Made by a program: the position numbers and the translations under genes
In this document: positions 38,364 to 53,338 of the stretch, piece after piece
Position numbering within the stretch: the first letter of the stretch is position 1
Layout: every line of letters starts with the position of its first letter
Notes under the pieces: generated by a model
The model's input: only the letters and a program-made list of their open reading frames with translations
Told to the model about the DNA's origin: nothing
The model's database searches: none
Source: Candidatus Methylacidiphilales bacterium
GTDB taxonomy: Bacteria > Pseudomonadota > Gammaproteobacteria > JASGCS01
Direction: 5' to 3'
Assembly (NCBI GenBank): GCA_030054035.1
Contig: JASGCS010000011.1
Coordinates: forward strand, 1-53,689
DNA length: 53,689 nucleotides

Positions 38364-39309
38364 TAATTATTGCATTCATTATGATGCGTAGATCATCTAG
38401 CGTTGGAAATGTGTTAAGAATTTGATGTCTGATTTGTCTAGCGTTAGAAAGGTGTGAGCAAATTAATGAGAGAGGCTGATAATATTTTCTTTCTAGGCGA
38501 CCATATTTACTTGCCAATGCTTCGCCATAATCAAGATATCTATTTATGCCGTCTTGTAATGGTAGTGTAGGTTCATTATAAAAGTGCTCTTGAAGAGTTC
38601 TGAGAAACAGTGGATTGGTAATCATGGCTCTACCAATCATGACACCATCTAGCCCTTTAGTTTTTTGCTGCCTGGCAAGTTGTAGTGACTTAATGCCACC
38701 ATTGATGATAATCGGTAATGTGGGGAAATGCTGTTTCATTTCAGAGACTATTTCATATTGCAGTGGAGGAACTGTTCTATTTTGACTAGGGTTTAATTTA
38801 CCCAGTATAGCTGATCTTGCATGCAACACAACTTCATCACAACTATTTAGCTGTAGTTTATTTAGTAAAGAATATAAATGATCTTTATCAATTGGATTTG
38901 TTAATCCGATTCTAGTTTTTACCGAAATAGGTATATTGGTTAATTGTTTAAGTAATAAAACTATTTCTATAAGTAAGTTTGGGTTTTCTATAAAGCTTGC
39001 ACCAAACCCACCTTTACAAACTGCATCACTTGGACAGCCAGCATTTATATTTATTTTATTTATTCGTGAAAAATCAAGGTGCGCTGCTATTCGTTTATAT
39101 TCGTTAATATTAGCACCTCCTATTTGAAGTACAATTTTACCTACTTCCTGAGACAGATCTAATTTTGAAATACATTTATCACGAACCAGAGCTGATAGAG
39201 AAATCATTTCAGTAGTAACTTGCACCTTGGGAGCAAGATACCTCATAAAAGTGATGAAATGTTTGTCAGTATACCCCATCATAGGGGCGCAATGAACAGC
39301 AAAATTCAC
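38332..39309 (-). CDS. dusA: tRNA-dihydrouridine(20/20a) synthase
   Basis: FMN enzyme reducing uridines in the tRNA D-loop. The catalytic cysteine is in NINAGCPSDAVCKGGFGA. VKTRIGL, HARSAILGKLNPSQNR (the DusA hallmark), NGGIKSLQLA and GVMIGRAM follow in order. 325 residues. The final residues DKPDSV are encoded antisense to the universally conserved 3' segment of RNase P RNA. The start overlaps the next upstream gene by four bases (ATGA), tying dusA to the signalling operon. Confidence 0.95.
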   Translation of the reverse strand: MNFAVHCAPMMGYTDKHFITFMRYLAPKVQVTTEMISLSALVRDKCISKLDLSQEVGKIVLQIGGANINEYKRIAAHLDFSRINKININAGCPSDAVCKGGFGASFIENPNLLIEIVLLLKQLTNIPISVKTRIGLTNPIDKDHLYSLLNKLQLNSCDEVVLHARSAILGKLNPSQNRTVPPLQYEIVSEMKQHFPTLPIIINGGIKSLQLARQQKTKGLDGVMIGRAMITNPLFLRTLQEHFYNEPTLPLQDGINRYLDYGEALASKYGRLERKYYQPLSLICSHLSNARQIRHQILNTFPTLDDLRIIMNAIISELTDKPDSV

Positions 39310-40130
39310 TGATTAGAAAAAGCTTCTAATTTAATTTGTGATAATTCATTTGAAATATTATCAACACTTAAAAACACTTCATCGGTACTGAACTCTTTAT
39401 TTTTTTTATACATTTCTCTCTTTTGTTCAATCATGACTTGCAAATCAACAAATTCTGTTGTTTGTGAAAATATAATTCTAGTTTCCAGATCTAACAAATT
39501 AAGAATAAAAGATAATTCATCTAAATATTCTTTATTAATTAACCTATCATTGTTTAATAATGGTTTTACTGCTTGCATTAATAGTATAAATCGTTGTTCA
39601 CTATCTTCAGAACTATTTATTGCCGATTTAATATTTATTATTTGTTTAAATGGTTGGGAAACATATTTATTGATAGTGTAGTTTGAATAAAATATATATC
39701 CAAATACTACACCAGATAGTGCAATAATGGTAATAATAAAATATTTTACTTTAGAGACTTGTGATTTACGTTTTTCCTCTAACGCTAGTTTTTTTTCTAC
39801 GTCTTGTTGATAACTGTTGTCCCAAGCTCCGTAGTCAACATTTATATTACTTTGATGTCTTTGAATAGTAATGTCTAATTGATTATTTTTATTAGACATT
39901 ACAGTAGTAATTTCACTATTAGTATTTTCTGGTTGCTCATAATTTTGTGAAAGTGCTATTGAAAGTCTTTCAATAATTTCAGGAGGTACTGAAGGTGTCG
40001 GGTGATTAAACTCTATCGCTTGTAGTTGCAATCTTCTAAGTTTTACATATTCAACTCTTGATATTTGGCCGTAAGCCACCGCCAAGGCTAACAGTCTGAG
40101 TTTACTACATTGTGATAATTTAAATGTCAT
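39306..40130 (-). CDS. Unknown bitopic membrane protein next to the kinase
   Basis: 274 residues from the ATG at 40130, four bases after the kinase stop; a longer start at 40190 lies inside the kinase. The N-terminal stretch LALAVAYGQISRVEYVKLRR (14-33) resembles the short SHOCT-like modules that begin 'G-I-S-x-x-E-Y' and often mediate oligomerisation. Residues about 45-125 are polar and probably disordered, 130-149 form one transmembrane helix (YFIITIIALSGVVFGYIFYS), and the C-terminal 125 residues are helical and presumably periplasmic. I do not recognise a family. The context (kinase upstream, tight spacing) suggests a partner or substrate of the kinase. Confidence 0.75.
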   Translation of the reverse strand: MTFKLSQCSKLRLLALAVAYGQISRVEYVKLRRLQLQAIEFNHPTPSVPPEIIERLSIALSQNYEQPENTNSEITTVMSNKNNQLDITIQRHQSNINVDYGAWDNSYQQDVEKKLALEEKRKSQVSKVKYFIITIIALSGVVFGYIFYSNYTINKYVSQPFKQIINIKSAINSSEDSEQRFILLMQAVKPLLNNDRLINKEYLDELSFILNLLDLETRIIFSQTTEFVDLQVMIEQKREMYKKNKEFSTDEVFLSVDNISNELSQIKLEAFSNQ

Positions 40131-40134
40131 GGCA

Positions 40135-43100
40135 CTAAAACAGAGAACGCAACACTCTAAAACTTGTATAGTTATTAATTGTATTTTCATCGTAAGGTTT
40201 TGTTAACATGCTATTGCAAATCTCGTAGCGATCTTTAAAGTTCCCTCCAACTAAACTGAATGTTTGATTATTGGTTACTAATTCATCAGCGTTACCTACA
40301 TAGTTAATTAAACCCCATCCATTAGATTTTCCGATAGAGATCGCTTCCATTCTGTAACCACGGATCGTAGCACCATAACTTTTAATATTACAATTATAGT
40401 CAATATTACCTTCCTTACCATTGACATTTGAAGCATACTGCCACTCAGTTATAGTGGGAAGTCTATATTGGTAACCAGTAATATTAGATAGCCATTGTAA
40501 ATATGATTGAATTTCAGAAATTGATTTATTTGTAACAGGTAAATTAATACTAGTAGGATCATTATTCGCTGTACAACTATTACTTGAAATACAATAGTTA
40601 TTAAAATCCCCAACAGAAACCTCGTATTTGCCAATCGCAAATGGTTGTTCGTTATTTTTACTTGGTATTATAACTAACAGTGGTCCTAAGTTATTTTTAT
40701 CGAGAGTATCCTGACAGGTGGCTCTAGAATCTTTTCCTAAACCGGCGTAACTTTCAAAACACACTCTCCGTTCGATAGTTTTATTATTATTTAGAGAATT
40801 TTTACCAAGATCACTTATCATTTTATTAAGTCTCTTAGATGCTAATTGATACTCCTCTCGATCGCTCCATATTTTTATTGCTTTATCCAACTCTATTTTT
40901 GCATCATTTGGTTTAGGCTTACTTGAGGATAATTTAGATTCGTATGCTTTATAGTAAGCTATTGATTCGGTTATCGCTTTTTTAATCAATCTACCTAACT
41001 TGATTGTGTCTTCGTGGTAAGGTTCATGTGTAGTTGCATTTGTATAATATTCTTGTGCTTTAGATAATTTCCCTTCACTAACAAGATTAATTCCTACAGA
41101 AGCGTATTTTGAAGGGATTGGCTTTTGACTTAATGATATCTTATCCAACCTTGGCCGAGAAGAGGGAAATTTACTATAAAGCTTATCTCTGAGATCCCAT
41201 GCCAGTACAATATTTTTATTAGTATTATTTTCAGTGATACTTATTATTGTTCGAGCTACAACATAGTTCTCAAAACTATTTCTTAATGACACATTATCTG
41301 ATTTCATAATCTTATCAGCCAGTGCTATTTTAAATTCTACTTGAAGAGATTTTATAAATTCAAGTATTTCTAATCTCAACATAACATTATTATGAATTTC
41401 CATTAATCTAGTGTTATTTAAATTAAGTAATAAACCATTTTCAACTATAGAATTAACCTCTGTCAAAAGTTTACTATTTTTTATTAGCTCATCAACATTA
41501 TTAGGATCGGGCAACTGTTTATATGTTAATTCAGCAATTTTAATATAACTTAATGCAATTGAGTTTTTAAACATAAGCTTATCTGGCGTTTCAGGATATT
41601 TAGAATATTCCTTATAAAGTTTTTCAATTACTTTAATATTATCTGTATTAATGGCATTAATAAGCTCTCTTTTAATGTTAAGTATTTTTTTCTCAGTAAT
41701 CCTATTATTTTGATCTTTTATAAGTAAATTATTCAATTGCACTAGTTCACTTTGCATTTTGGAAAGCATATCACTATTTTCAGTTAAATCTTTTACTATT
41801 ATGAAGTACAAAAGTGCACTATCATAATCAACCTCCATTACAGCGTTGTTAAATTGATTCAATAGTAACTGATCAACCTGATCGGTTAAAGATTGCAACT
41901 GGTTTTTTGAATTACTGAGTATTATTAACTGTTTATAATTCCTTATAAATTCATTATACCTATTTGGTAAGGTCAAATCGTTATTTTTCTCTAAAATACT
42001 ATAATATTCTTTTGTGTTAGCTGAAATTGTATTAACATTTTCATTAAGAGAATTATTTTCTAGCAATTTCTCCATTTCTTTAATTAACGTTTTAGCAGAT
42101 ATAAAATATTGAGTAGATTTTAAAGAATGAAATTTATTTTTATTTTCCAATGTTTTATAGTATCCAATTACTGATTGTTCTAATTTAGTCGCCTTGGATT
42201 GTATTACTTTGCTGGATAAATTATTTTTTGTATTGATACTACCTAACACTTGTTCCGATATAAAAAAGGGGGAAAATAATAAATCATAATCTTGGTTATT
42301 ATATGTAGTTGTAATTTCATATGACTTATTACCTTGATAAATCTTGAATTGATTAAGAATTGCATCAAGTTGTAATGCACTCACAATTTTATATTGTTCA
42401 TCAAACTGATTAATCCGTTCAATTTTTTTTTCAACTCTATCAAATTGTTTTTGAATAGCGCCATTAATTGCATTTAATTTGATCAATTCTTCTTTTGTTT
42501 GTTTGATGTAATCTTCTATTTTCAGTATTGAATTGTTATAGGTTTTATTTTTCACAACTTCAATAGCGCGATCTAAAATCTCAGGCACAAAAATACTGGA
42601 ATTACTAAGCTGACCAATTATTATAAGTAATTTTTTTAATTTATCTATATCATTTTCTTTTATAAATTCATCAATGATTTTAAGACTTAATGTATTCTTC
42701 GCTTTACATAACGAAGTTCTATAATCTCTTACTTCCTTTGAATCAGGATAAATATAGTAAAGCGAGTCAATTAACGCAGCTGCTTCATTATATCTAAGCG
42801 TGTTTGATTCGTAATCTATTTTTGACGATTTTGATTCTGGTGGTATAAATAATTTTTGCGACTCATTTTTAGCAAAAGTTATTAAAGATTTCTGTGCGTT
42901 GGTATAAATTAAATATTTATCATATCCAACCCCAAGCAATTTATCGATTAGTGTTAAAGATCCATCAGATTTTTCTTTCACTTTTTCTGAACTTAACTTG
43001 AGCGTATCTTTATTCTCAGTAGAATACTCACAAACCTCATCATTAAAATTTATTGACTGAGTTTCAGTAGATAAATTTTTAATTGACCTTAGTGCTTTGT

Positions 43101-44721
43101 ACTTTAAATCTATATCATCTGAGTATAATTCAGCAAGTACTGTATTAGTATTTTTTTTAGTTAGCCGCTCCGCATAAAAAGTGCGAGTGACCATTGCCAA
43201 AATTACTATTGATAAAAAAGATACACTAATGATACTTAAAGAGTGATTCGGCCTTGGGCGAATGCCTTCCATAAATTCGTGAATTGACTTTATTCTATTT
43301 TTTCTACGCAATGCAATTGATTTTTCCAAAGTGTATTTCTGAAGATCAGTTAGAGAGGTTCGATCTAGAGAGGGAGGCTGTAAATTATTTTCTACCGCAT
43401 AAACAGCAGTTTTTTTCCTGTATGGATGAGCTCCCAATAACAACTCATAACACACACAACCCAGCGCATAAATATCATCTGCAGGATCTGGATTTTGTTG
43501 AAAGTGCATCTCATAACTTGCATAGGCAGGAGTGAGTGCATTCATTGAAGACGGATCAAACAAAGTTTTGTCAACTGATTTTTCCTCAATACTTGTACTA
43601 GTATTTTGATTATTTTCATCCAATTTAGTAATACTAGTATTTTCTGAAAGAGAGTCGATTTGGATTTCATCCAATTCGGTCACTTCTCTCTCACTTGCAC
43701 TTCCAGCTCGAGCAATACCAAAATCAATCACTTTAACTGTTTGTTGTTTAGTTTGTTGATTTTCAACAAGGTATGCATTACCAGGTTTAAAATCTGAATG
43801 TATTAGTTGATTTTTATGGGCATAGCCAAGTGCATTTGCTAGTCCTTCAATAATTGGCCACGCTTCTGCAAAACTTAACCCTTTTTTTGGGACAACTTGG
43901 GTGCTTATAAATTCCTTTAATTCAATTCCACTAAGTAATTCCATTGTCATATAGATAGTACCAGTTGATTCTTCTCTATCAAAATCATACACAGTGGCAA
44001 TATTTGGATGGGCAAGTCTCTGTGATTTACTTGCTTCACGCTCTAAAATTATGAATGAGTTAGCGTGCTTTTTAAAATCATCAGTTAATAACTTGATCGC
44101 AACATAGGGCTGCTTATTTTTAGCTTCATATTTGATTAAGTCAAGTGCTTTATACACTTTTCCCATACCCCCGACACCTAAAAGACTTTCTAACCTAAAT
44201 CTTCCTTTTAGAACGGTGCCCACATCTAACTTATTGGAAACATTTGAACCTTTTAAATTAAAATTATCCGAATAACCAGTTCCTGTCAGGAAAGCGCCAG
44301 TTGATTGTAAAGTTTTATCTGTAATTGAATGTCTGTCAGCGACAACATCAATTTCAGTCCTATCTTGAGACAAATCTTTACTATTTGTATTATCTAAATC
44401 GTGGTTAGTCGTATCAATTACTACAGTTTTTTCAGCATCAATTACTGTAGTTTTTGCAATGGTTTTTTCGTTATCAATATTGCTATCTGATGCTAGGAGT
44501 GTTTCAGTGAGTGATTTATCGTATCGCTCTAAAAAGTAATCAATGAACTCTTGTGGAACAGAAGTATTGGTATGTTTCTGATTATACTCAACAATGGTTT
44601 GTTTAAAATTCGTTACTCCATTAGGGATTTCTTTTATTGCAGCGTCAATTCTATTTTTAATACTTCTTTTATCATAATCGCCTCTTGCGATTTCATCAAG
44701 AATTTTAAGTATCTGATTCAT
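40135..44721 (-). CDS. Giant transmembrane Ser/Thr kinase with C-terminal FGE/SUMF1-like domain
   Basis: 1528 residues from the ATG at 44721. Order: a helical N-terminal segment (1-70), a T/D-rich linker (75-165), a kinase domain (about 170-485), one transmembrane helix (about 494-514), a ~800-residue helical periplasmic region, and a C-terminal SUMF1-like domain in the last ~180 residues. Kinase motifs: P-loop GVGGMGKV, VAIK lysine (residue 210), HSDFKPGN in the catalytic loop and IDFGIAR. The activation segment carries an unusual ~55-residue S/T/D-rich insertion before TPAYASYEM. The end domain has GKYEVSVGDFNNYC, YRLPTITEWQYA and FRVLR, typical of SUMF1 folds that bind rather than generate formylglycine. 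TxxD motifs, favoured by FHA domains when phosphorylated, occur at T92, T122, T348, T365 and T386. It is probably an envelope sensor; the phosphatase gene lies 19 bases upstream. Confidence 0.9.
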   Translation of the reverse strand: MNQILKILDEIARGDYDKRSIKNRIDAAIKEIPNGVTNFKQTIVEYNQKHTNTSVPQEFIDYFLERYDKSLTETLLASDSNIDNEKTIAKTTVIDAEKTVVIDTTNHDLDNTNSKDLSQDRTEIDVVADRHSITDKTLQSTGAFLTGTGYSDNFNLKGSNVSNKLDVGTVLKGRFRLESLLGVGGMGKVYKALDLIKYEAKNKQPYVAIKLLTDDFKKHANSFIILEREASKSQRLAHPNIATVYDFDREESTGTIYMTMELLSGIELKEFISTQVVPKKGLSFAEAWPIIEGLANALGYAHKNQLIHSDFKPGNAYLVENQQTKQQTVKVIDFGIARAGSASEREVTELDEIQIDSLSENTSITKLDENNQNTSTSIEEKSVDKTLFDPSSMNALTPAYASYEMHFQQNPDPADDIYALGCVCYELLLGAHPYRKKTAVYAVENNLQPPSLDRTSLTDLQKYTLEKSIALRRKNRIKSIHEFMEGIRPRPNHSLSIISVSFLSIVILAMVTRTFYAERLTKKNTNTVLAELYSDDIDLKYKALRSIKNLSTETQSINFNDEVCEYSTENKDTLKLSSEKVKEKSDGSLTLIDKLLGVGYDKYLIYTNAQKSLITFAKNESQKLFIPPESKSSKIDYESNTLRYNEAAALIDSLYYIYPDSKEVRDYRTSLCKAKNTLSLKIIDEFIKENDIDKLKKLLIIIGQLSNSSIFVPEILDRAIEVVKNKTYNNSILKIEDYIKQTKEELIKLNAINGAIQKQFDRVEKKIERINQFDEQYKIVSALQLDAILNQFKIYQGNKSYEITTTYNNQDYDLLFSPFFISEQVLGSINTKNNLSSKVIQSKATKLEQSVIGYYKTLENKNKFHSLKSTQYFISAKTLIKEMEKLLENNSLNENVNTISANTKEYYSILEKNNDLTLPNRYNEFIRNYKQLIILSNSKNQLQSLTDQVDQLLLNQFNNAVMEVDYDSALLYFIIVKDLTENSDMLSKMQSELVQLNNLLIKDQNNRITEKKILNIKRELINAINTDNIKVIEKLYKEYSKYPETPDKLMFKNSIALSYIKIAELTYKQLPDPNNVDELIKNSKLLTEVNSIVENGLLLNLNNTRLMEIHNNVMLRLEILEFIKSLQVEFKIALADKIMKSDNVSLRNSFENYVVARTIISITENNTNKNIVLAWDLRDKLYSKFPSSRPRLDKISLSQKPIPSKYASVGINLVSEGKLSKAQEYYTNATTHEPYHEDTIKLGRLIKKAITESIAYYKAYESKLSSSKPKPNDAKIELDKAIKIWSDREEYQLASKRLNKMISDLGKNSLNNNKTIERRVCFESYAGLGKDSRATCQDTLDKNNLGPLLVIIPSKNNEQPFAIGKYEVSVGDFNNYCISSNSCTANNDPTSINLPVTNKSISEIQSYLQWLSNITGYQYRLPTITEWQYASNVNGKEGNIDYNCNIKSYGATIRGYRMEAISIGKSNGWGLINYVGNADELVTNNQTFSLVGGNFKDRYEICNSMLTKPYDENTINNYTSFRVLRSLF

Positions 44722-44740
44722 CAATTTAACTTATAAAAAA

Positions 44741-45469
44741 CTACGTATCTGATACTTCGACCACAATGACCGTTACATTATCATCTGCATGATTCTCTAA
44801 AGCTTTTGCAATTAAATTTTCAGCCGCGCGCATTGGTATATCAAATAATTGAACTCTAATTTCTTCATTAGACAAAGCTTTATAGAGCCCATCACTACAT
44901 AACAAAAATTTATCGCCGGGTTTTACTGGCAGACAATCAATATCTACATAAAGTTCCTCGACCGCTCCAACAGCTCTAGTGATTATATTTGCCGATGGGT
45001 GTTTTTCAGCCTCCTCAAGAGTGATTTGACCACGATCTACTATTTCTTGAACATAGGAATGATCATGAGTAACCATGGAAAGTAGGTTATCTCTGTAGAT
45101 ATAAATTCTACTGTCTCCTGACCATAAGAAATAGGCATTTGAACCATAACCAAGCAACATTGCAACCGTGCTACCCATTATTTGGTTACCATTTGTTGCA
45201 AGATTCATCCGAAGCTCCTTATTAAGAGAAATCAATGTGTCTTCTATATTTTCAATAGTGCTACTTAGGGATTTTTTTAAAGAAAAATTTTCAAATGCTT
45301 GTTTGATTTTAGAACTCGCCACATCCCCCCTTGCATGACCTCCCATACCATCGGCAACAACCCATAACATTTGATCCGGCAATGTTAGAAAAGAGTCTTC
45401 ATTAATTTTTCTATGGCCTGCACCTACATTGGAAAAACCACATGAACGCCAAACTAACTGTTTATTCAT
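44741..45469 (-). CDS. PP2C-family (PPM) Ser/Thr protein phosphatase
   Basis: 242-residue soluble phosphatase. Metal-binding motifs are intact: RKINEDSF, VVADGMGGHARGDVAS, LWSGDSRIYIYR, LLCSDGLYKAL and HADDNVTVIVV. No transmembrane segment or extra domain. It is the first gene of the reverse unit phosphatase-kinase-membrane protein-dusA, and bacterial PPM enzymes next to Hanks kinases normally remove the kinase's phosphates. The kinase start is 19 bases downstream. The shared 109-base gap with gltX should hold its promoter. Confidence 0.95.
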   Translation of the reverse strand: MNKQLVWRSCGFSNVGAGHRKINEDSFLTLPDQMLWVVADGMGGHARGDVASSKIKQAFENFSLKKSLSSTIENIEDTLISLNKELRMNLATNGNQIMGSTVAMLLGYGSNAYFLWSGDSRIYIYRDNLLSMVTHDHSYVQEIVDRGQITLEEAEKHPSANIITRAVGAVEELYVDIDCLPVKPGDKFLLCSDGLYKALSNEEIRVQLFDIPMRAAENLIAKALENHADDNVTVIVVEVSDT

Positions 45470-45578
45470 GGGGCTTTAGACTGTAAATGGTATATAATTT
45501 ATCTACTATTATTTTCATACAAAATGTTAAAACCTTAATCTCTATGGGTTATTATATACAATTATTCTATCAAACTCC
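45470..45578. promoter_or_regulatory. Divergent promoter region phosphatase / gltX
   Basis: 109 AT-rich bases between divergent starts. Forward: TATTCT at 45563-45568 ends ten bases before the gltX ATG and no Shine-Dalgarno is seen. Reverse: TATATACC-type sequences near 45490-45500 could serve the phosphatase. No longer inverted repeat was found. Confidence 0.35.
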
Positions 45579-46943
45579 ATGAAGGTTACAACTAGATTTG
45601 CCCCAAGTCCTACTGGAAGCTTGCATCTAGGAGGTGCGAGAACAGCACTATTTAATTGGTTATTTGCTAAAAATAAAGGTGGGGAGTTTTTACTACGTTT
45701 CGAAGATACTGATATTGAGCGATCCAACATCAGTTACTGCGAACAAATTGAGGAAGCCCTACAGTGGCTAGGTATCGATTATCCAAAGCCAACCTTTCAA
45801 ACACAAAAGATTTCTAGATATAAAGATATTGCTGAAAATCTGCTTAAAAATGGTTATGCATACTACTGTAACTGTAGCCAAGAAAGGCTGCAAAGCATAA
45901 GAACCCAACAAATCGCCCAAGGTACATTACCAAAATATGATGGACAATGTAGAAATAAGTCGATACTTGATGAAGGGTCAGTAATAAGAATCAAATTACC
46001 AAGCGAGCAACATTCACTTTCATTTAATGATACTATTAGAGGTGAGCTTACAATTTTACAAGAACAACTTGATGACTTTATTATTCTCCGCTCAAACGGT
46101 ATTCCTACCTTTAATTTTGCTGTAATTATTGATGACAATGATCAAGAAATATCACATGTTATAAGAGGTGATGATCATATTACCAACACCTTTAAGCAGA
46201 AAGCTATCTCACAATTAGCAAAATTAAATTGGCCTTCGTTCACTCATGTACCGTTACTATTGGATCAACAGGGTAAAGTATTATCTAAACGAGATGCCGC
46301 GTCTAATGTATTACAATATCGTGAAAATGGCTTTACCAGCGAGGCTCTTAACAATTATTTGTTAAGACTTGGTTGGTCTAAAAATAATTTGGAATACATT
46401 ACCATGAAAGAAGCGATTAGGCATTTTTCTTTATCAGGACTAAATCGTTCAGCTTGTAAAATTGATATAGATAAATTATCGTGGTTGAACAAACAACATA
46501 TAAAAAATATTCCTCCAAAAGAAATAGCAATGCGTTTAATTCATCATAAAGAAGAAACAATTGAATGGTTGGCTAGTGTCATTACTCTATATCAAGGAAG
46601 AGTTGAGACTCTCAAAGAACTAGAAGAGATAATACAATCATTTCTTTATCCTCAGCTTCTATTTAATGAAGATGAATTATTATTCTGTAAAGATAATAAT
46701 ACTCTCCTAATAAATTTAATAAAACAAATTAATAATTTAGTAGACTGGAATAAACAATGTTTAAAAGATATTTTAACTACCTATTTTGAGCAATTTGATA
46801 CAAATTTATCAAGTAAATTTTTTCCAATACTGCGTATATTTTTAATCGGAAGAAGTCATGGGCCGTCTCTAGAATCAATAATGGAGATCCTTGGTAAAGT
46901 GAAAACTATAAAACGCTTAGAACTTATGGGTGAATATTCTTAA
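45579..46943 (+). CDS. gltX: Glutamyl-tRNA synthetase
   Basis: Class I synthetase charging tRNA-Glu. The HIGH motif is in FAPSPTGSLHLGGARTA and the KMSKS motif appears as GKVLSKRDAASN. The zinc-knuckle region YYCNCSQERL...YDGQC is kept. 454 residues, slightly short of the ~470 in E. coli. The gene is followed by tRNA-Ala and tRNA-Glu, so the enzyme's own substrate tRNA is encoded next to it. It interrupts the signalling locus but lies on the other strand from the kinase operon. Confidence 0.96.
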   Translation: MKVTTRFAPSPTGSLHLGGARTALFNWLFAKNKGGEFLLRFEDTDIERSNISYCEQIEEALQWLGIDYPKPTFQTQKISRYKDIAENLLKNGYAYYCNCSQERLQSIRTQQIAQGTLPKYDGQCRNKSILDEGSVIRIKLPSEQHSLSFNDTIRGELTILQEQLDDFIILRSNGIPTFNFAVIIDDNDQEISHVIRGDDHITNTFKQKAISQLAKLNWPSFTHVPLLLDQQGKVLSKRDAASNVLQYRENGFTSEALNNYLLRLGWSKNNLEYITMKEAIRHFSLSGLNRSACKIDIDKLSWLNKQHIKNIPPKEIAMRLIHHKEETIEWLASVITLYQGRVETLKELEEIIQSFLYPQLLFNEDELLFCKDNNTLLINLIKQINNLVDWNKQCLKDILTTYFEQFDTNLSSKFFPILRIFLIGRSHGPSLESIMEILGKVKTIKRLELMGEYS

Positions 46944-46973
46944 TTATTAAGTAGGATAATGTTATTTTAATAG

Positions 46974-46979
46974 TATAAT
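46974..46979 (+). promoter_or_regulatory. Candidate -10 of the tRNA pair
   Basis: A perfect TATAAT lies 23 bases before the 5' end of tRNA-Ala, in the 59-base gap after gltX. The -35 is not obvious, and read-through from gltX is also possible. Confidence 0.4.
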
Positions 46980-47002
46980 ATTTCAAAACAAGTGGATAAT
47001 AA

Positions 47003-47075
47003 GGGGTCATAGCTCAGTTGGTAGAGCGCTACAATGGCATTGTAGAGGTCGGCGGTTCGATCCCGCCTGGCTCCA
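47003..47075 (+). tRNA. tRNA-Ala (anticodon GGC)
   Basis: Full cloverleaf: acceptor GGGGTCA/TGGCTCC with two G-T pairs, D-arm AGCTCAGTTGGTAGAGC, anticodon stem CTACA/TGTAG around loop ATGGCAT, T-arm GGCGGTTCGATCCCGCC, discriminator A at 47075. The next bases are AAA, so CCA is not encoded here and must be added enzymatically. It is seven bases upstream of tRNA-Glu. Confidence 0.96.
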
Positions 47076-47082
47076 AAAACAA

Positions 47083-47158
47083 GTCCCCATCGTCTAGAGG
47101 CCTAGGACACTGCCCTTTCACGGCGGTAACAGGGGTTCGAATCCCCTTGGGGACGCCA
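47083..47158 (+). tRNA. tRNA-Glu (anticodon TTC)
   Basis: Full cloverleaf: acceptor GTCCCCA/TGGGGAC, anticodon loop CTTTCAC with TTC, T-arm AGGGGTTCGAATCCCCT, discriminator G, and an encoded CCA ending at 47158 (76 bases). Unlike its neighbour it carries CCA in the DNA. It is probably co-transcribed with tRNA-Ala. Confidence 0.97.
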
Positions 47159-47161
47159 ATT

Positions 47162-47183
47162 ATTAAGTTATACATAACTTAAT
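47162..47183. repeat. 10-bp inverted repeat between tRNA-Glu and cyclase
   Basis: ATTAAGTTAT, AC, ATAACTTAAT: perfect arms with a two-base centre, three bases after tRNA-Glu and two bases before the -10 of the cyclase gene. Lack of GC pairs and of a T-run argues against a simple terminator; its overlap with the promoter suggests an operator. Confidence 0.6.
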
Positions 47184-47185
47184 GG

Positions 47186-47191
47186 TATACT
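47186..47191 (+). promoter_or_regulatory. Candidate -10 of the cyclase-FHA gene
   Basis: TATACT eleven bases before the ATG at 47203, with no Shine-Dalgarno in between, implying a leader of only a few bases. The palindrome at 47162-47183 occupies the -35/spacer region. Confidence 0.4.
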
Positions 47192-47202
47192 AATAGCAAG
47201 TT

Positions 47203-48132
47203 ATGACCACACAAACCAATAAAGTTATACTTTTTGCAGATATCACAGGAAGTACTAAACTATATGATACTTACGGCAATCAAATTGCAGAAAGTATCAT
47301 ATCCATCTCACTTTCAAAAGTTAAAGATATAATCAAAAAATATAACGGCACTGTAATCAAAACAATAGGGGATGAAGTTATGTGCTCTTTTGAGAGTGGA
47401 AATGAGGCATTAGATTCTGCAGCTGCAATACATTTAACCTTTAATGATCACAAGGTTTTAGATAAATATACAATTTCATTTAAAATTGGTGCAGATTACG
47501 GTGAAGTTATAATGTCAGATAACGATTTATTTGGTAATGCAGTAAATATCGCTTCACGCATGACATCAATTGCGCGTTCATCTCAAACCATTTATTCAGA
47601 ATCACTTTATAACTATTGCGACGAAGATCATAAAAACAATTCAAGAAAATACGACATAACTAATGTAAGGGGTAAAGAAGCTAAACTTACTATTTATGAA
47701 CATATGTGGGAGACTGAGGAAAATACAGAATTAACACGAATAGCAAGTCACAATTCTTCAACATTTTCAACTGAAGAACATCAATATCTTAGTGAAGAAA
47801 TAGCATTAACATATATGGGTGAAAAATTCATCTATCAAAGTACTCTAACCGAAGCAATAATGCTTGGAAGAGCAATTGACAACACTCTCGCAGTATCATC
47901 AACTTTTGCTTCTAGGTATCACGCTAAAATTGAGTACAGAAGAAATAAATTCATAATAAATGATCAAAGTACTAACGGCACTACAATAATTATAGAGAAA
48001 AATAACCCCCTGTATATCAAAAGAGAAGGTTTACCATTAATTAATAACGGCAAAATAATCTTTGGTCTATACAAAGATGGGGAATTTATTAGTGAAAATA
48101 TGATAGAATTCACAATAAATAAGAAAGTCTAA
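47203..48132 (+). CDS. Class III nucleotide cyclase fused to an FHA domain
   Basis: 309-residue soluble protein. The N-terminal half is an adenylate/guanylate cyclase catalytic domain with both metal aspartates (D13 in LFADITGST, D57 in TIGDEVMCSF) and the transition-state N/R pair in FGNAVNIASRM, so it should be active; ATP rather than GTP is likely but not certain. The C-terminal part, from about residue 210, is an FHA domain with the full signature LGRAIDNT, SRYHAKI and NDQSTNGTT, which binds phosphothreonine. There is no membrane segment. The nearby kinase has several TxxD sites that such a domain would prefer, so kinase activity may recruit or control the cyclase. It is convergent with the TpsB-like gene, seven bases apart. 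Confidence 0.93.
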   Translation: MTTQTNKVILFADITGSTKLYDTYGNQIAESIISISLSKVKDIIKKYNGTVIKTIGDEVMCSFESGNEALDSAAAIHLTFNDHKVLDKYTISFKIGADYGEVIMSDNDLFGNAVNIASRMTSIARSSQTIYSESLYNYCDEDHKNNSRKYDITNVRGKEAKLTIYEHMWETEENTELTRIASHNSSTFSTEEHQYLSEEIALTYMGEKFIYQSTLTEAIMLGRAIDNTLAVSSTFASRYHAKIEYRRNKFIINDQSTNGTTIIIEKNNPLYIKREGLPLINNGKIIFGLYKDGEFISENMIEFTINKKV

Positions 48133-48139
48133 AATATTA

Positions 48140-50143
48140 TTAGAAACTATATCTTATTTCTGCAAATATCATTGGTCTGTCTAAAGATACTTGAGCATTA
48201 AGTTCTTTCTTAGAAATATCATTAAATCCAATAGTTAATCTTGCGAAGATATAATCTGGATGATTGAATTGAAATCCAAAACCATAACCTGAAATATGTA
48301 CTTTATTTGGAGTAGTCTTAGAATGGAAGGCAAAATTATCGTAACCTGATGAGTAATCATAAAAAAGTGAAAACTGCATCACTTGACCCCATGTATAACC
48401 TTCATCATAGGGTAAATCTGATATACCTGGTGAATTCATGATAAATTCAATAGTACCAGACTCTGTATTGTCTCTAATATAGTAAGAATTAGTTACAGAA
48501 CGAACATCACCAGGACCGCCTAATGTGCTTTGAAATAGTGAAAATAGAGGGTCATTAGTAAATTGTGCTGAATATTTAAAAAGCATTGAAAACTCATCAT
48601 CAATTGACTGAAGGCGAGATAGCGAAATACTTAATTTTGAAAAATCTGTAGGTAATTCTTGACCACTTTGATTTGTTCCATCTTTTGAAATTGTTCGGTC
48701 AGAATCATGAAATTTTTTAGTAGTACCACCGAATCCAATACCAGGAGTGCCAAAAGTGTACTCAATACTACCTGAATTTAGAGCAGAAGTTGAACGACTT
48801 AAGTGTGAAAATACATACGATAAAGAAGCAGAGTCAAGATTAGGCTTCTGACTATTAGTAATTGGAGAACCTTCACGCTGATAAGTAGAGGAATCATTTC
48901 TTATTGTAAAATTGCTGTACATTTGCAACTCTCTAGTTTTAACCCAATATTGTCTGAAACTTAAATATAAATAAGAAGTATCACCTTCAATATCTAAAGG
49001 CTGACCATTATATTTAAAAGTATTTTTACCATAATTTAAGTCAAAAAAGGTACCAGGGTTCGAAATAGGGACAGAGTAACTTATAGAGCCATAAAAAGTT
49101 CCTCTTTTTGCGGATTGGGCGATTTGAGAGGTTTGAAAAAGTAGAGTTAAACTATCAGAAGATGAAGTTGGATTATTAGCAGTATAACTAAACCGCAATC
49201 TAGTACTACCTGTTTGTAAAACACCTTGATTATCAATATATAATTCAAACTGATTTGCTTTTTCTTTTTCTACATTAATCACGAGATCACTTTCACCAGC
49301 TGAAACACCCCTTGCAAGAGATGCAGACAAAGTTAAACCTGGTAAATCTTGTAAAAACATCATTCTACTTTCAAGACCAGATTTAGTAATTGGCTGATTA
49401 AGTAAATCTTCAAATTGATTCGTTATTTGTTGGGAAGAGTAGCTAATGCCACCAAAAACTTTAATCTGACCTAAGGTTCCTTCAAGAACTTTAAAAGTGA
49501 CAACACCATCAATAACACTTTGCTCAGGTAACCTAGCTTCGGAAAGTAAAAAGCCTCGATCTCGATAATATTCAGTTATTTTATTAGCTAACAATTGTAA
49601 TTGTCCAACTGAAAGGCCTGTTCTAAAAGACTTATTATAACGAAGATATTTTATTAGATCTTTAAATTCATCAGTTATATTATCTAATTCTTCAGTTAAA
49701 GTTGTTCCTTTTTCAACAAAATCTCTTAGTAAATTCCATTCATCATTAGTCAAACCAGCATCAACAATTTTATCAAGACCAAGAGCAATAAAACGTTGCT
49801 CTTCAATAAACCTCTGTAATTCAGCTATAAACAAAGAATTTTCTGGTCTATCTATTACGCCAGTGATAGTTATTTTATTGACTGGTATTTTTTCACCTTC
49901 ATCAATTCCTAAAGGTCTATCATAGACAGGTGGAATATCAAATATTTTCAATTTATCAGTAATTGTAGGAATTTGTTTATTAAAAATATTATTTTGAATA
50001 TCTTTAATATCTCCTTGAGTTCTTCCTAAAGATTCGACTGCTTCAGGGACTGGGACTGGTTTATCTACAGGTTCTGCAATTACAAATTCAAGATTAAGCA
50101 ATTGTAATAATACTGTAATAAAAATAATATTTTTATATTTCAT
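48140..50143 (-). CDS. TpsB/ShlB-type outer-membrane transporter (Omp85 superfamily), atypical
   Basis: 667-residue precursor with signal peptide (about 1-23), a proline-rich linker, POTRA modules (about 88-295) and a C-terminal beta barrel ending in phenylalanine (EIRYSF). The first POTRA contains a clear ShlB-type core (LQLLANKITEYYRDRGFL, LPEQSVIDGVVTFKVLEG), but an extra ~75-residue helical acidic block (about 100-175) is inserted after its first strand. The barrel's conserved VRGF/Y signature appears as VRSV in GGPGDVRSVTNSYY near residue 546. TpsB proteins export a large TpsA adhesin or haemolysin, but none is in the window. Instead it is the last gene of an ExbB-ExbD-ExbD-AgmX operon, so it may be energised or used by that complex. 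Confidence 0.85.
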   Translation of the reverse strand: MKYKNIIFITVLLQLLNLEFVIAEPVDKPVPVPEAVESLGRTQGDIKDIQNNIFNKQIPTITDKLKIFDIPPVYDRPLGIDEGEKIPVNKITITGVIDRPENSLFIAELQRFIEEQRFIALGLDKIVDAGLTNDEWNLLRDFVEKGTTLTEELDNITDEFKDLIKYLRYNKSFRTGLSVGQLQLLANKITEYYRDRGFLLSEARLPEQSVIDGVVTFKVLEGTLGQIKVFGGISYSSQQITNQFEDLLNQPITKSGLESRMMFLQDLPGLTLSASLARGVSAGESDLVINVEKEKANQFELYIDNQGVLQTGSTRLRFSYTANNPTSSSDSLTLLFQTSQIAQSAKRGTFYGSISYSVPISNPGTFFDLNYGKNTFKYNGQPLDIEGDTSYLYLSFRQYWVKTRELQMYSNFTIRNDSSTYQREGSPITNSQKPNLDSASLSYVFSHLSRSTSALNSGSIEYTFGTPGIGFGGTTKKFHDSDRTISKDGTNQSGQELPTDFSKLSISLSRLQSIDDEFSMLFKYSAQFTNDPLFSLFQSTLGGPGDVRSVTNSYYIRDNTESGTIEFIMNSPGISDLPYDEGYTWGQVMQFSLFYDYSSGYDNFAFHSKTTPNKVHISGYGFGFQFNHPDYIFARLTIGFNDISKKELNAQVSLDRPMIFAEIRYSF

Positions 50144-50149
50144 AAATTA

Positions 50150-51241
50150 TTAACCAGATGGTAAGAAATTTATTGGGAACCTTATTACAGCATTTCCTGC
50201 TGACGCTGGCTTAGCTTGAAAAATAAATAATTTGATTCTATCAACCATCTTTGATTCCAGCTCTGGAGATTTAAGCTGCGAAGAAAGTATTTTTACAGAT
50301 ACTACTGAGCCTGATGGAGAAATGGTAATTTCAAAAAGAATCTCTCCTTTGATAGTTGGGTTAACTCTTAATTCTTTTTGGTAAAGCCTATCCAATAAAC
50401 CTTTGTTAGTATCAAAAACAATTTGTACTTCTTCAGCGGTTCTTCCGCCACCAATTTGCTTACCTGCTCCAGACCCACCTTTTCCAGCTAGCCCTCCTGA
50501 GCCACCAGGACCGCTACCAGGACCAAAAGCCCCACCTAAAGCACCTTCCCGAACTGCTATTCCTGAGCCTGCTGATCCACCATCACCTTTCCTTAATTGA
50601 CCTGCATTTCCACTTCCTATAGCGCCTCGATTTGTGACCAATTGACTGCCACTTCCTGCAGTATTACCTTCTAAAGCTAAAACTCCACCACTAGTACCAG
50701 AAACCGAACCTGTTCTAACACCAGGAGCAACAGTTTTAATATCATTTGAGACTCCAAGGTTTCCAAAAGATTCACCAGGTAACCCAGATCCACCACCACC
50801 AATGCCTAAATCTGATAATTCACTTGATAAAGCTGCTAAACCTTCTTGAGATGCTTTTTTTCGTGCTTGTGATTTGTCATCAATTGAAGGTTTTTTAGTG
50901 ACTTTTTGATCAACTTTAGCAGATTGAGAATCTTCCTCTGAAGACTTTTCACTTTCAGCCTGAGCAGCTGCTCTTGCTGCTTCTTCAGCTAATCTTCGTT
51001 GTTCTTCTAAGTCCTTTTCCTTATTTTCTCTTTCTGTAATAATTGTATTAATAAGAGATTGTGGTACAGGTTGCGGAGGAGGAGGTGAGTACTCAATGTT
51101 ATATGCAAGATAAATTATTACAAATCCAAAAGCAAGAAAAGATCCTGCAAATAGATTTAGATGTTTTTTGTCCTGCGGAGTTTGTACCCATGGAAGGATT
51201 AAATCTCTTAATTGTGGAAATAAAATTGTAGGATTATTCAT
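50150..51241 (-). CDS. AgmX/TonB-like energy-coupling protein
   Basis: 363 residues: cytosolic N terminus, one membrane helix (about 30-47, FAGSFLAFGFVIIYLAYN), PPPPQPVP, an acidic/Ala-rich coiled coil (65-100), a long glycine-rich low-complexity linker (about 147-266) and a C-terminal domain (267-363, RTAEEVQIVFDTNKGLLDRLYQ, GEILFEITISPSGSVVSVKI). The end domain fits the AgmX/PglI C-terminal family, related to TonB, known from myxobacterial gliding and found with ExbB/ExbD-type motors. It lies 15 bases after the second ExbD and seven before the TpsB-like gene, so it probably links the proton-driven motor to the outer membrane. Confidence 0.85.
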   Translation of the reverse strand: MNNPTILFPQLRDLILPWVQTPQDKKHLNLFAGSFLAFGFVIIYLAYNIEYSPPPPQPVPQSLINTIITERENKEKDLEEQRRLAEEAARAAAQAESEKSSEEDSQSAKVDQKVTKKPSIDDKSQARKKASQEGLAALSSELSDLGIGGGGSGLPGESFGNLGVSNDIKTVAPGVRTGSVSGTSGGVLALEGNTAGSGSQLVTNRGAIGSGNAGQLRKGDGGSAGSGIAVREGALGGAFGPGSGPGGSGGLAGKGGSGAGKQIGGGRTAEEVQIVFDTNKGLLDRLYQKELRVNPTIKGEILFEITISPSGSVVSVKILSSQLKSPELESKMVDRIKLFIFQAKPASAGNAVIRFPINFLPSG

Positions 51242-51256
51242 AAGCTTAATATATTT

Positions 51257-51754
51257 TTATTTTCCGAGAGCGGCAAATGTAAGTCTTGTAAAACCAGCTT
51301 TTCTACCACTAATCATTATTTTTCTAATAAACTCATAGCTATGTTTTTTATCAGCTAATATAATAAGTTCATTCCTAGGATCTTCCTCGCCAGGTTTAAC
51401 CGATAGCCCACCTACATCTTGTGAGCGTACTGATATAAGTGCTTGTACTAACTCGTTTATCTCAACATCTGAACGACTTAAAACCTCAGCAACAGAAATA
51501 ACTTTTTTATTTTGTATAAGTATCTCAACTGGTGTGGCAACAACAACCATTGCCTCTTCTTTTGGTGCTTGTTCAGAAATTGAAAGCGGAGCAACTAGAC
51601 CAGCTGGAGATTGTAGTGGGTTACTTCCAGAAGTATTAACCAATAGAAAAAATAAAAGTAAAGTAAAAACATCCATCAATGAAGTTAACATTAACCCTGG
51701 TTGTTTTTTGCTTTTTGATCTTCTTCTCAGTCTTCCTGCAGTTCTTTTACTCAT
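51257..51754 (-). CDS. ExbD/TolR-family motor protein (second copy)
   Basis: 165 residues from the ATG at 51754; in-frame starts at 51784 and 51811 lie in or against the previous gene. It has a basic cytosolic N terminus (RLRRRSKSKKQ), one membrane helix with the proton-path aspartate (LMLTSLMDVFTLLLFFLLVN) and a periplasmic domain. With ExbB it forms a proton channel that energises the TonB-like protein. The sequence differs strongly from the first ExbD, so the two are probably distinct subunits rather than a recent duplication. Confidence 0.88.
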   Translation of the reverse strand: MSKRTAGRLRRRSKSKKQPGLMLTSLMDVFTLLLFFLLVNTSGSNPLQSPAGLVAPLSISEQAPKEEAMVVVATPVEILIQNKKVISVAEVLSRSDVEINELVQALISVRSQDVGGLSVKPGEEDPRNELIILADKKHSYEFIRKIMISGRKAGFTRLTFAALGK

Positions 51755-51773
51755 ACTAGTATCTCTATATTTA

Positions 51774-52286
51774 TCATGGGGCATCTCCGATTGCAAGATC
51801 AGGGAAAACATTTTTGGTAATTAGGTCACTAGGCTTGTCTTTATGTAAGCGAATTGCATCAATAACGCTTACAACAAAATCATACTTTACCTGAGGTTCT
51901 ATCAGGATAGTAGCGTCATTTTTATCAGGAAAACTACCTTTTAAAGTAAGTAGATAATCATTAAGGTCCTTATATCTATAACCAGGGTCATCTTCTGACG
52001 CATCAGGTGTTGAACCTTTCACATTAGCAAATGCTCTCACCACTTTTTTACCATCTGTAACTTCTATTCCCGAGCCTCGTACTATTACTTCTACCGTTAG
52101 AGTTGGTCCTTTTGCAGCAGCAGCAGCAGCGCCAGCTCCAGCAACTGTAGGTAAATTTAATTGAGTAACTGCCATTCTTGAAAAAACAGCAGTGGACAGC
52201 AAGACTGGAATAACTGTAACCAATATATTAAGAAACGCTGTTAAATCTACGTCTGTTTCTTTTTCTGCATGACCCTTTTTTGCCAC
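51774..52286 (-). CDS. ExbD/TolR-family motor protein (first copy)
   Basis: 170 residues starting at GTG, preceded five bases upstream by GGGAG, which decides the start. The membrane helix has the conserved aspartate and is followed by a run of small residues (VDLTAFLNILVTVIPVLL; GAGAAAAAAKGP). The periplasmic part contains DDPGYRYKDLNDYLLTLKG. Paired ExbD genes with an ExbB and AgmX are a recognised layout of gliding/TonB-like motors. It is 19 bases after exbB. Confidence 0.87.
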   Translation of the reverse strand: MAKKGHAEKETDVDLTAFLNILVTVIPVLLSTAVFSRMAVTQLNLPTVAGAGAAAAAAKGPTLTVEVIVRGSGIEVTDGKKVVRAFANVKGSTPDASEDDPGYRYKDLNDYLLTLKGSFPDKNDATILIEPQVKYDFVVSVIDAIRLHKDKPSDLITKNVFPDLAIGDAP

Positions 52287-52305
52287 AATAGCTCCCTAAT
52301 TAGAT

Positions 52306-52956
52306 TTAAACTTGTCCTGGAGCTTTTTTAACTTCAGTAATCAAGTTAAGAGTTTTTACTGTAGCCATCTCCATACTTGTCATAATTTCTGCAGCTTTAG
52401 AAGAATTTACAGTAAACATAATAAGCATCGGTACTGCTCCAAACAAACCCAAAGCGGTTGCGTTCATAGCCAAACCAATACTAGCTGACAATAATTCAGA
52501 CTTTAAAGCTGGCGGTGCGTCAGCGACTGCCTTAAACGCTTTAATCAAACCTATAACAGTACCTAATAGTCCTAACAGTGTTGAAATATTTGCATATAAA
52601 CCAATGTATGGAATTCTTTTTTCCAGTTGTGGAGTTAATTCGAGAATACCTTCCTCCATCGCAACTTCAATATCGTCTCTACGTCTAACTGCTGAAGATC
52701 TTTCCATACCTAGTATTAACAATCTTCCAATTTCACTTGGTTTTTTCTGAGCCATTAGCTTAACATCATCAAATTTACCTTTTTCAAGTAAAGGAAGAAA
52801 TTCTTTCCATGCTTTAAGATTTCTAGATCTGATACTAGATAGCGCAAAAAACCTTTCTGCAGAGATAGCAAATCCCAAAACTATAACCAACAGAATCGGA
52901 ATAGCAACATATGCTTCTGCTTTAAAAAAATGTAGTAGTTCATTTAAAAAATCCAT
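52306..52956 (-). CDS. ExbB/TolQ/MotA-family proton channel
   Basis: 216-residue inner-membrane protein with three hydrophobic segments, the first at about 15-35 (AYVAIPILLVIVLGFAISAE), the others around LLGLLGTVIGLIKAFKAVA and IGLAMNATALGLFGAVPMLI, which are the ExbB/TolQ signature helices. It supplies the stator of the motor with the two ExbD proteins. A GAGG precedes the ATG by about eight bases and a -10 (TATAAT) sits further up, so an internal promoter may start here. Confidence 0.92.
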   Translation of the reverse strand: MDFLNELLHFFKAEAYVAIPILLVIVLGFAISAERFFALSSIRSRNLKAWKEFLPLLEKGKFDDVKLMAQKKPSEIGRLLILGMERSSAVRRRDDIEVAMEEGILELTPQLEKRIPYIGLYANISTLLGLLGTVIGLIKAFKAVADAPPALKSELLSASIGLAMNATALGLFGAVPMLIMFTVNSSKAAEIMTSMEMATVKTLNLITEVKKAPGQV

Positions 52957-52992
52957 TTTATTTACCTCAATATTTTAATTTGTATAAACCAT

Positions 52993-52998
52993 ATTATA
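52993..52998 (-). promoter_or_regulatory. Candidate internal promoter -10 upstream of exbB
   Basis: TATAAT on the reverse strand, 36 bases before the exbB ATG at 52956, in an 88-base gap in an otherwise tight operon. No clear -35. It would allow exbB-exbD-exbD-agmX-tpsB to be made without the upstream coiled-coil protein. Confidence 0.4.
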
Positions 52999-53044
52999 AC
53001 ATATTTTAAATCATTTAATATTTTAAATCGAAAAAGTGGTTAGT

Positions 53045-53338
53045 TTAGTTTGATTCTTCATGTTTCAATAGCTCTTCATTAACTGGAATTATTGGAAATC
53101 GTTTGATATTACTACGAAGTTTGCCATCTTCCCAATCAACACCAGATTTCCAAGGAACAAGTACCAAACTTTTGGCTGCTTCTTGAACTCCAATAATATT
53201 AGTCCCACCAAAAGTATAGATCTTAGACTTATTTTGAGGGGGATTATTTTTAGCGACTTCTTTATTTTCTAGCTCAGCAGATATCGCACTAAAAGTTAAA
53301 AAAACAATTGATATAATTAAAGTTAATTTATTTATCAT
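53045..53338 (-). CDS. Small exported protein of unknown function
   Basis: 97 residues with a clear signal peptide (LTLIISIVFLTFSAISA) and a charged mature part containing YTFGGTNIIGVQEAAKSLVLVPW. No known family is recognised. It overlaps the preceding coiled-coil gene by 11 bases and is followed by ExbB, so it is likely a periplasmic accessory subunit of the same machine. Confidence 0.75.
   Translation of the reverse strand: MINKLTLIISIVFLTFSAISAELENKEVAKNNPPQNKSKIYTFGGTNIIGVQEAAKSLVLVPWKSGVDWEDGKLRSNIKRFPIIPVNEELLKHEESN

Follow-up and report, generated by a model that had tools for sequence, protein, structure and literature searches.

A membrane Ser/Thr kinase, a PP2C phosphatase and a class III nucleotidyl cyclase fused to an FHA domain probably form a single phosphothreonine-to-cyclic-nucleotide relay with a cis switch in the fashion of GarA and OdhI, a reading to which we give a probability of about 0.6. 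Very probably, protein phosphorylation acts on a cAMP-like signal, through a threonine motif other than the TxxD motif on which the initial annotation had built its circuit. If this is true, a widespread operon of gammaproteobacteria couples eukaryote-like threonine phosphorylation directly to the synthesis of cyclic nucleotides, and exact candidate residues can be supplied for this coupling: T175 and T178 of the cyclase, T386 and the N-terminal linker sites of the kinase, and R223 and S237 of the FHA domain.

Gene layout and conservation of the module

The window, i.e., the whole stretch of DNA analysed, is the complete contig C11 (53,689 bases) of a 1.72-Mb genome that is 96% complete; the rank that it shares with the sampled relatives is the class only, and those that are named are mostly gammaproteobacteria. 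The kinase (40135..44721, minus strand) has 1528 residues from its ATG, to which an alternative TTG start in the list of open reading frames adds one, and the gene for the Stp1-like PP2C phosphatase (44741..45469, minus strand; 242 residues, with metal-binding and catalytic residues intact) lies directly upstream on the same strand. On the opposite strand follow gltX, encoding glutamyl-tRNA synthetase (45579..46943, plus strand), which is probably not a member of the circuit, and the FHA-cyclase (47203..48132, plus strand; 309 residues), which begins 1734 bp beyond the end of the PP2C gene. A fourth gene of the module (39306..40130, minus strand) encodes a small protein, likely to start at Met21 of the listed open reading frame, with an N-terminal LAxxYAxGxID-type motif and one transmembrane segment; a TpsB-like POTRA/ShlB outer-membrane transporter (48140..50143, minus strand) is a conserved neighbour.

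Conservation of the kinase/PP2C/FHA-cyclase neighbourhood in relatives had been proposed as a check on the circuit, and its outcome is clearly favourable. Among 369 genomes of the class, the FHA-cyclase was found in 79 and the kinase type in 63; both occur together in 42 genomes against 13.5 expected (Fisher 2e-18), within 5 kb of each other in about 20 of the 42, and in 28 of the loci examined all three genes of the module, PP2C included, lie within 3 kb. The association of these genes is not due to chance. The usual order, usually within one operon and often with a two-partner-secretion transporter nearby, is cyclase, PP2C, kinase and small membrane protein; in most linked loci the gene that immediately follows the kinase is a homologue of the fourth gene, sometimes with an FGE domain. 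The window shows a rearranged version of this module, with gltX in the middle. Its PP2C-gltX junction is also found in a distant relative (L074:1250-4744), and in another gltX adjoins the FHA-cyclase (L061:9626-12013).

The linked set contains near-identical loci (L127/L135/L139, L173/L174 and L185/L189). On the cyclase tree the linked state needs 10 changes, compared with 30.1 when labels are shuffled; linked cases fall mostly in one clade with others scattered, so that independent events are much fewer than 28, and the long branch of the window's cyclase makes its placement uncertain. In a scan of 80 loci, some of which end at contig ends, 70 FHA-cyclases had no linked kinase or PP2C, which indicates that the cyclase has other partners as well; TpsB was found near the cyclase in five of the ten loci linked to kinase or PP2C and in none of the other 70.

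Candidate phosphorylation sites in the kinase and the cyclase

The kinase consists of a threonine-rich N-terminal linker, a catalytic domain (PF00069, 1.3e-28), a transmembrane segment near residues 494-513 and followed by ~800 residues, and, at the end of this long periplasmic part, an FGE-sulfatase-type domain (residues ~1317-1528; 40138..40773, minus strand; PF03781, 2.1e-9). The catalytic residues K210, D310, N315 and D333 are invariant in 14 relatives. The kinase carries HSD in place of HRD and is therefore non-RD; given the distinction between RD and non-RD kinases, it cannot be taken for granted that phosphorylation of the activation loop controls its activity. Catalytic formylglycine-generating enzymes carry two catalytic cysteines close to the C-terminus; the C-terminal domain of the kinase has a single conserved cysteine instead of these two and is accordingly read as a binding module.

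The three genes named in the initial annotation are real and intact, and its five TxxD threonines (T92, T122, T348, T365 and T386) are located as claimed, but the kinase protein contains nine TxxD motifs. The additional ones are at T105, at T243, which belongs to the folded kinase domain, and at T590 and T1335, beyond the transmembrane segment. TxxD does not exceed shuffled sequence over the whole protein (p 0.12) or in its first 170 residues (3 against 2.2, p 0.39); it does so in residues ~330-410 (3 against 0.5, p 0.004), a region picked post hoc. The activation segment (residues 333-405; 43507..43725, minus strand) does contain the long insertion that had been described, with T348, T362 and T365, ahead of T386 in DKTLFDP. 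Since the distance from DFG to ALTPAYAS is 57 residues in the window, as against 20-29 in most relatives (mostly 22) and 40-41 in two, most of the insertion is specific to the window, and T348 and T365 have no counterparts in relatives. Conservation of the TxxD sites failed more generally: in 14 aligned relatives only T386 (codon 43564..43566, minus strand) is kept, T92 and T122 not being conserved as TxxD. T386, which 32 of the 33 kinases with a downstream LTPxYAS-type motif share, is both a TxxD and a [DE]xTx[hydrophobic] site.

The latter motif distinguishes the N-terminal linkers. In 26 non-redundant relatives, TxxD is at chance in these linkers (28 against 32.5 expected) and the serine version of [DE]xTx[FILMV] likewise (7 against 6.9), whereas [DE]xTx[FILMV] itself occurs 50 times against 8.8 by shuffle, which is a lenient null, the periplasmic parts of the same kinases also lying above it (47 against 28.1, 1.7-fold) and other kinases likewise. 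Counted per threonine, [DE]xTx[FILMV] is 3-fold more frequent in the linkers than in the periplasmic parts of these kinases (p 2e-6), compared with 1.35-fold for TxxD (p 0.23). TxxD was rejected as the docking motif because it is not enriched and mostly not conserved, and the better-supported candidate sites are those of [DE]xTx[FILMV], which in the window's kinase linker (residues 75-165; 44227..44499, minus strand) are T99 and T122 and which include a near-invariant threonine in the linker of the cyclase. The protein of the fourth gene, promising by eye as a further carrier of the motif, was dropped for want of enrichment (3 against 2.6).

The cyclase had been called catalytically intact, and all the residues expected of class III enzymes are indeed present: the two metal-binding aspartates D13 and D57, the adenine-type pair K53/D108 and the transition-state pair N115/R119, the position of N115 holding N or H in the family. 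D13 is conserved in 93 of 93 family members, D57 in 92 and K53 in 90. The best structural match is the adenylyl cyclase Ma1120; this match and K53/D108 predict a product made from ATP, i.e., probably cAMP. In the FHA domain (47791..48126, plus strand), which comprises G222-R223, S237-R238-x-H240 and N258-G259, the phosphothreonine-binding residues R223, S237 and N258 are intact, and G222, R223, S237, R238, H240, S256, N258 and G259 are invariant in 93 aligned FHA-cyclases; the nearest solved FHA chains by profile are those of OdhI and Rv1747.

Between the two domains lies a linker (residues 170-196; 47710..47790, plus strand) that is variable in the 93 aligned FHA-cyclases except for an acidic-x-Thr, nearly invariant, that directly follows the cyclase domain. 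Its threonine stands at the strict column in 79 of the 93 sequences, and most of the rest carry it shifted by a gap. Conservation of the T175 column is at least 90%. The window's cyclase has the site in tandem, as E173-N-T175-E-L and E176-L-T178-R-I. A strict [DE]xTx[FILMV] immediately after the cyclase domain was found in 43 of 52 FHA-cyclases and in none of 29 class III cyclases without FHA. AlphaFold2 predicts both domains to be well folded (mean pLDDT 89.7) and residues 174-193 to be disordered (pLDDT below 50). A purely structural role of the motif segment is therefore unlikely, and a structural reason for the linker threonine was rejected.

The proposed relay and its rivals

In the proposed relay, the kinase would use its periplasmic part and FGE-type domain to sense the envelope, and would autophosphorylate the threonines of its [DE]xTx[hydrophobic] sites, namely the array in the N-terminal linker and T386 of the activation segment; the FHA domain would dock the cyclase onto these phosphorylated sites; the kinase would phosphorylate T175/T178 in the cyclase linker; the cyclase's own FHA domain would bind the linker phosphothreonine in cis, with release from the kinase and altered cyclase output; and PP2C would strip the phosphates as a reset. 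The cyclic nucleotide is probably cAMP, and its likely receiver is another kinase, which has a cNMP-binding domain at its C-terminus. The conserved linker threonine is what points to a GarA-like switch in the cyclase. We infer the phosphorylation, binding and regulatory steps from sequence, which cannot tell whether the cyclase would be activated or inhibited. The earlier circuit of kinase, FHA-cyclase and PP2C reset is strongly supported by co-occurrence and linkage but not in its molecular basis, TxxD.

A simpler scheme, in which TxxD sites are autophosphorylated and the FHA domain merely docks the cyclase on the kinase for local synthesis, with no cyclase switch, would likewise require intact FHA residues and could draw on T386, a conserved TxxD; we consider it unlikely, given the chance-level frequency of TxxD in the linkers (also per threonine), the lack of conservation of T348 and T365, and the near-invariant threonine of the cyclase linker, which it leaves unexplained. 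Equally unlikely is a reading in which the FHA-cyclase serves a membrane assembly chiefly as its phospho-scaffold, like Fha in type VI secretion, the assembly here perhaps being the two-partner-secretion neighbours, with the cyclic nucleotide secondary. The preference of TpsB for the kinase/PP2C-linked loci agrees with this, as does the occurrence of the same kinase/PP2C pair after tssM- and tagF-like genes, named from sequence appearance, in another genome (G051, L054:305-4575); the family-wide retention of D13, D57 and K53, needless for a pure scaffold, and the co-occurrence of a cNMP-binding kinase argue against it. The least probable of the three would have the genes linked but functionally separate, the kinase acting on other FHA proteins or on the fourth gene's product, the cyclase answering another kinase, and the neighbourhood reflecting operon inheritance. 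The genome does encode about nine kinases and three FHA proteins (two besides the FHA-cyclase), and most FHA-cyclases have no linked kinase, but co-occurrence holds in unlinked cases too, and kinase and cyclase have a motif in common.

As to the output of the proposed phosphothreonine relay with its cis switch, no class III cyclase other than the FHA-cyclase was found in the genome, and cNMP-binding domains occur in two of its proteins, one of them a Ser/Thr kinase with the domain at its C-terminus (C1:430544-431854; L193:5544-6857). This candidate cAMP-responsive kinase, a possible output, keeps the FGE...RTA phosphate-binding cassette, as do nearly all of its correctly read relatives in a comparison that leaves out L243, L247 and L248, which look like translations of the wrong strand. 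Among the matches listed, the architecture is present in at least 71 of the 369 genomes; at least 41 of these also have the cyclase, where 15.2 would be expected, and of the 20 genomes with a linked module 18 have the architecture. Measured against genomes with similar kinases that lack the cNMP-binding domain, it accompanies the linked module in 18 of 71 genomes versus 1 of 58 (p 9e-5, again among the matches listed), a link partly confounded by kinase-rich genomes, and its association with the cyclase in general is weak (p 0.013). A closed relay, in which an envelope-sensing Ser/Thr kinase acts on the FHA-cyclase and the cyclic nucleotide activates the cNMP-binding Ser/Thr kinase in a PKA-like manner, beside two-partner secretion, is conceivable but doubtful. 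Elsewhere in the genome (L192:4195-7716), the genes for three proteins, identified in part by the look of their sequences, are neighbours: an FHA protein, one that resembles GAF/HD-GYP proteins, and a double cNMP-binding protein whose end is rhodanese-like.

The transporter next to the cyclase has the POTRA_2 and ShlB beta-barrel domains of TpsB; no TpsA was found in the window, which ends at the contig end. In line with it (48140-53338, minus strand) are encoded ExbB, two ExbD and an AgmX/PglI-type TonB-like protein, a run that suggests a proton-driven system coupled to the two-partner-secretion transporter. The genome has 13 TPS-domain (PF05860) matches on contigs C2, C4, C5, C6, C7, C15 and C16, in frames of up to 4966 codons, which is a large exoprotein load for 1.7 Mb. 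A defence role was discarded, PADLOC returning nothing beyond generic kinase models and weak matches to Pycsar cyclases.

Comparison with known systems

The module resembles the PpkA/PppA/Fha pathway of threonine phosphorylation in type VI secretion systems (T6SS) in its membrane Ser/Thr kinase with a periplasmic sensor part, its adjoining PP2C and its FHA effector. In T6SS, TagR is an FGE-type periplasmic protein that acts on PpkA, whereas here a domain of this type is part of the kinase polypeptide itself. The core gene VipB/TssC has no match in the genome (96% complete), the TagH model for an Fha/TagH-type partner scores 19 bits against a cut-off of 120, and membership of the module in a T6SS was rejected; unlike in that pathway, the FHA domain is fused to a nucleotidyl cyclase and the neighbours belong to two-partner secretion. 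The 63 genomes with the kinase type divide into 28 that have the FHA-cyclase but no T6SS, 15 with a T6SS but no FHA-cyclase, 14 with both and 6 with neither. One or both are present in 57 of the 63, as would be expected if the kinase chassis requires an FHA partner and two kinds are available; this suggests that one chassis has been reused for two kinds of FHA output. A T6SS Fha protein binds DLPpTVVEI, a PpkA-dependent site (PMC3953482).

GarA and OdhI proteins carry a phosphorylated ETTS motif N-terminal of the FHA domain (PMC12321487). The FHA-cyclase is like them in its conserved acidic-x-Thr in a flexible segment before the FHA domain and in its intact phosphothreonine-binding residues (93 of 93), and differs in that the FHA domains of these actinobacterial proteins act on metabolic enzymes in trans, whereas here the domain is covalently joined to the cyclase and phosphorylation is predicted. 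The catalytic fold and key residues are those of the mycobacterial class III adenylyl cyclases Ma1120 and Rv1900c/LipJ, whose solved chains lack an FHA domain and for which we know of no linked kinase. In Myxococcus Pkn2, kinase and cyclase are combined in one domain architecture (PMC1262709); the joining of a Ser/Thr kinase to a cyclase is covalent there, whereas here two proteins would be coupled through phosphothreonine. Our literature search, conducted mostly outside subscription journals, yielded no description of an FHA-cyclase with a kinase or with two-partner secretion. The module is a variation on the known wiring of Ser/Thr kinase, PP2C and FHA protein, in which the FHA output would be a cyclase.
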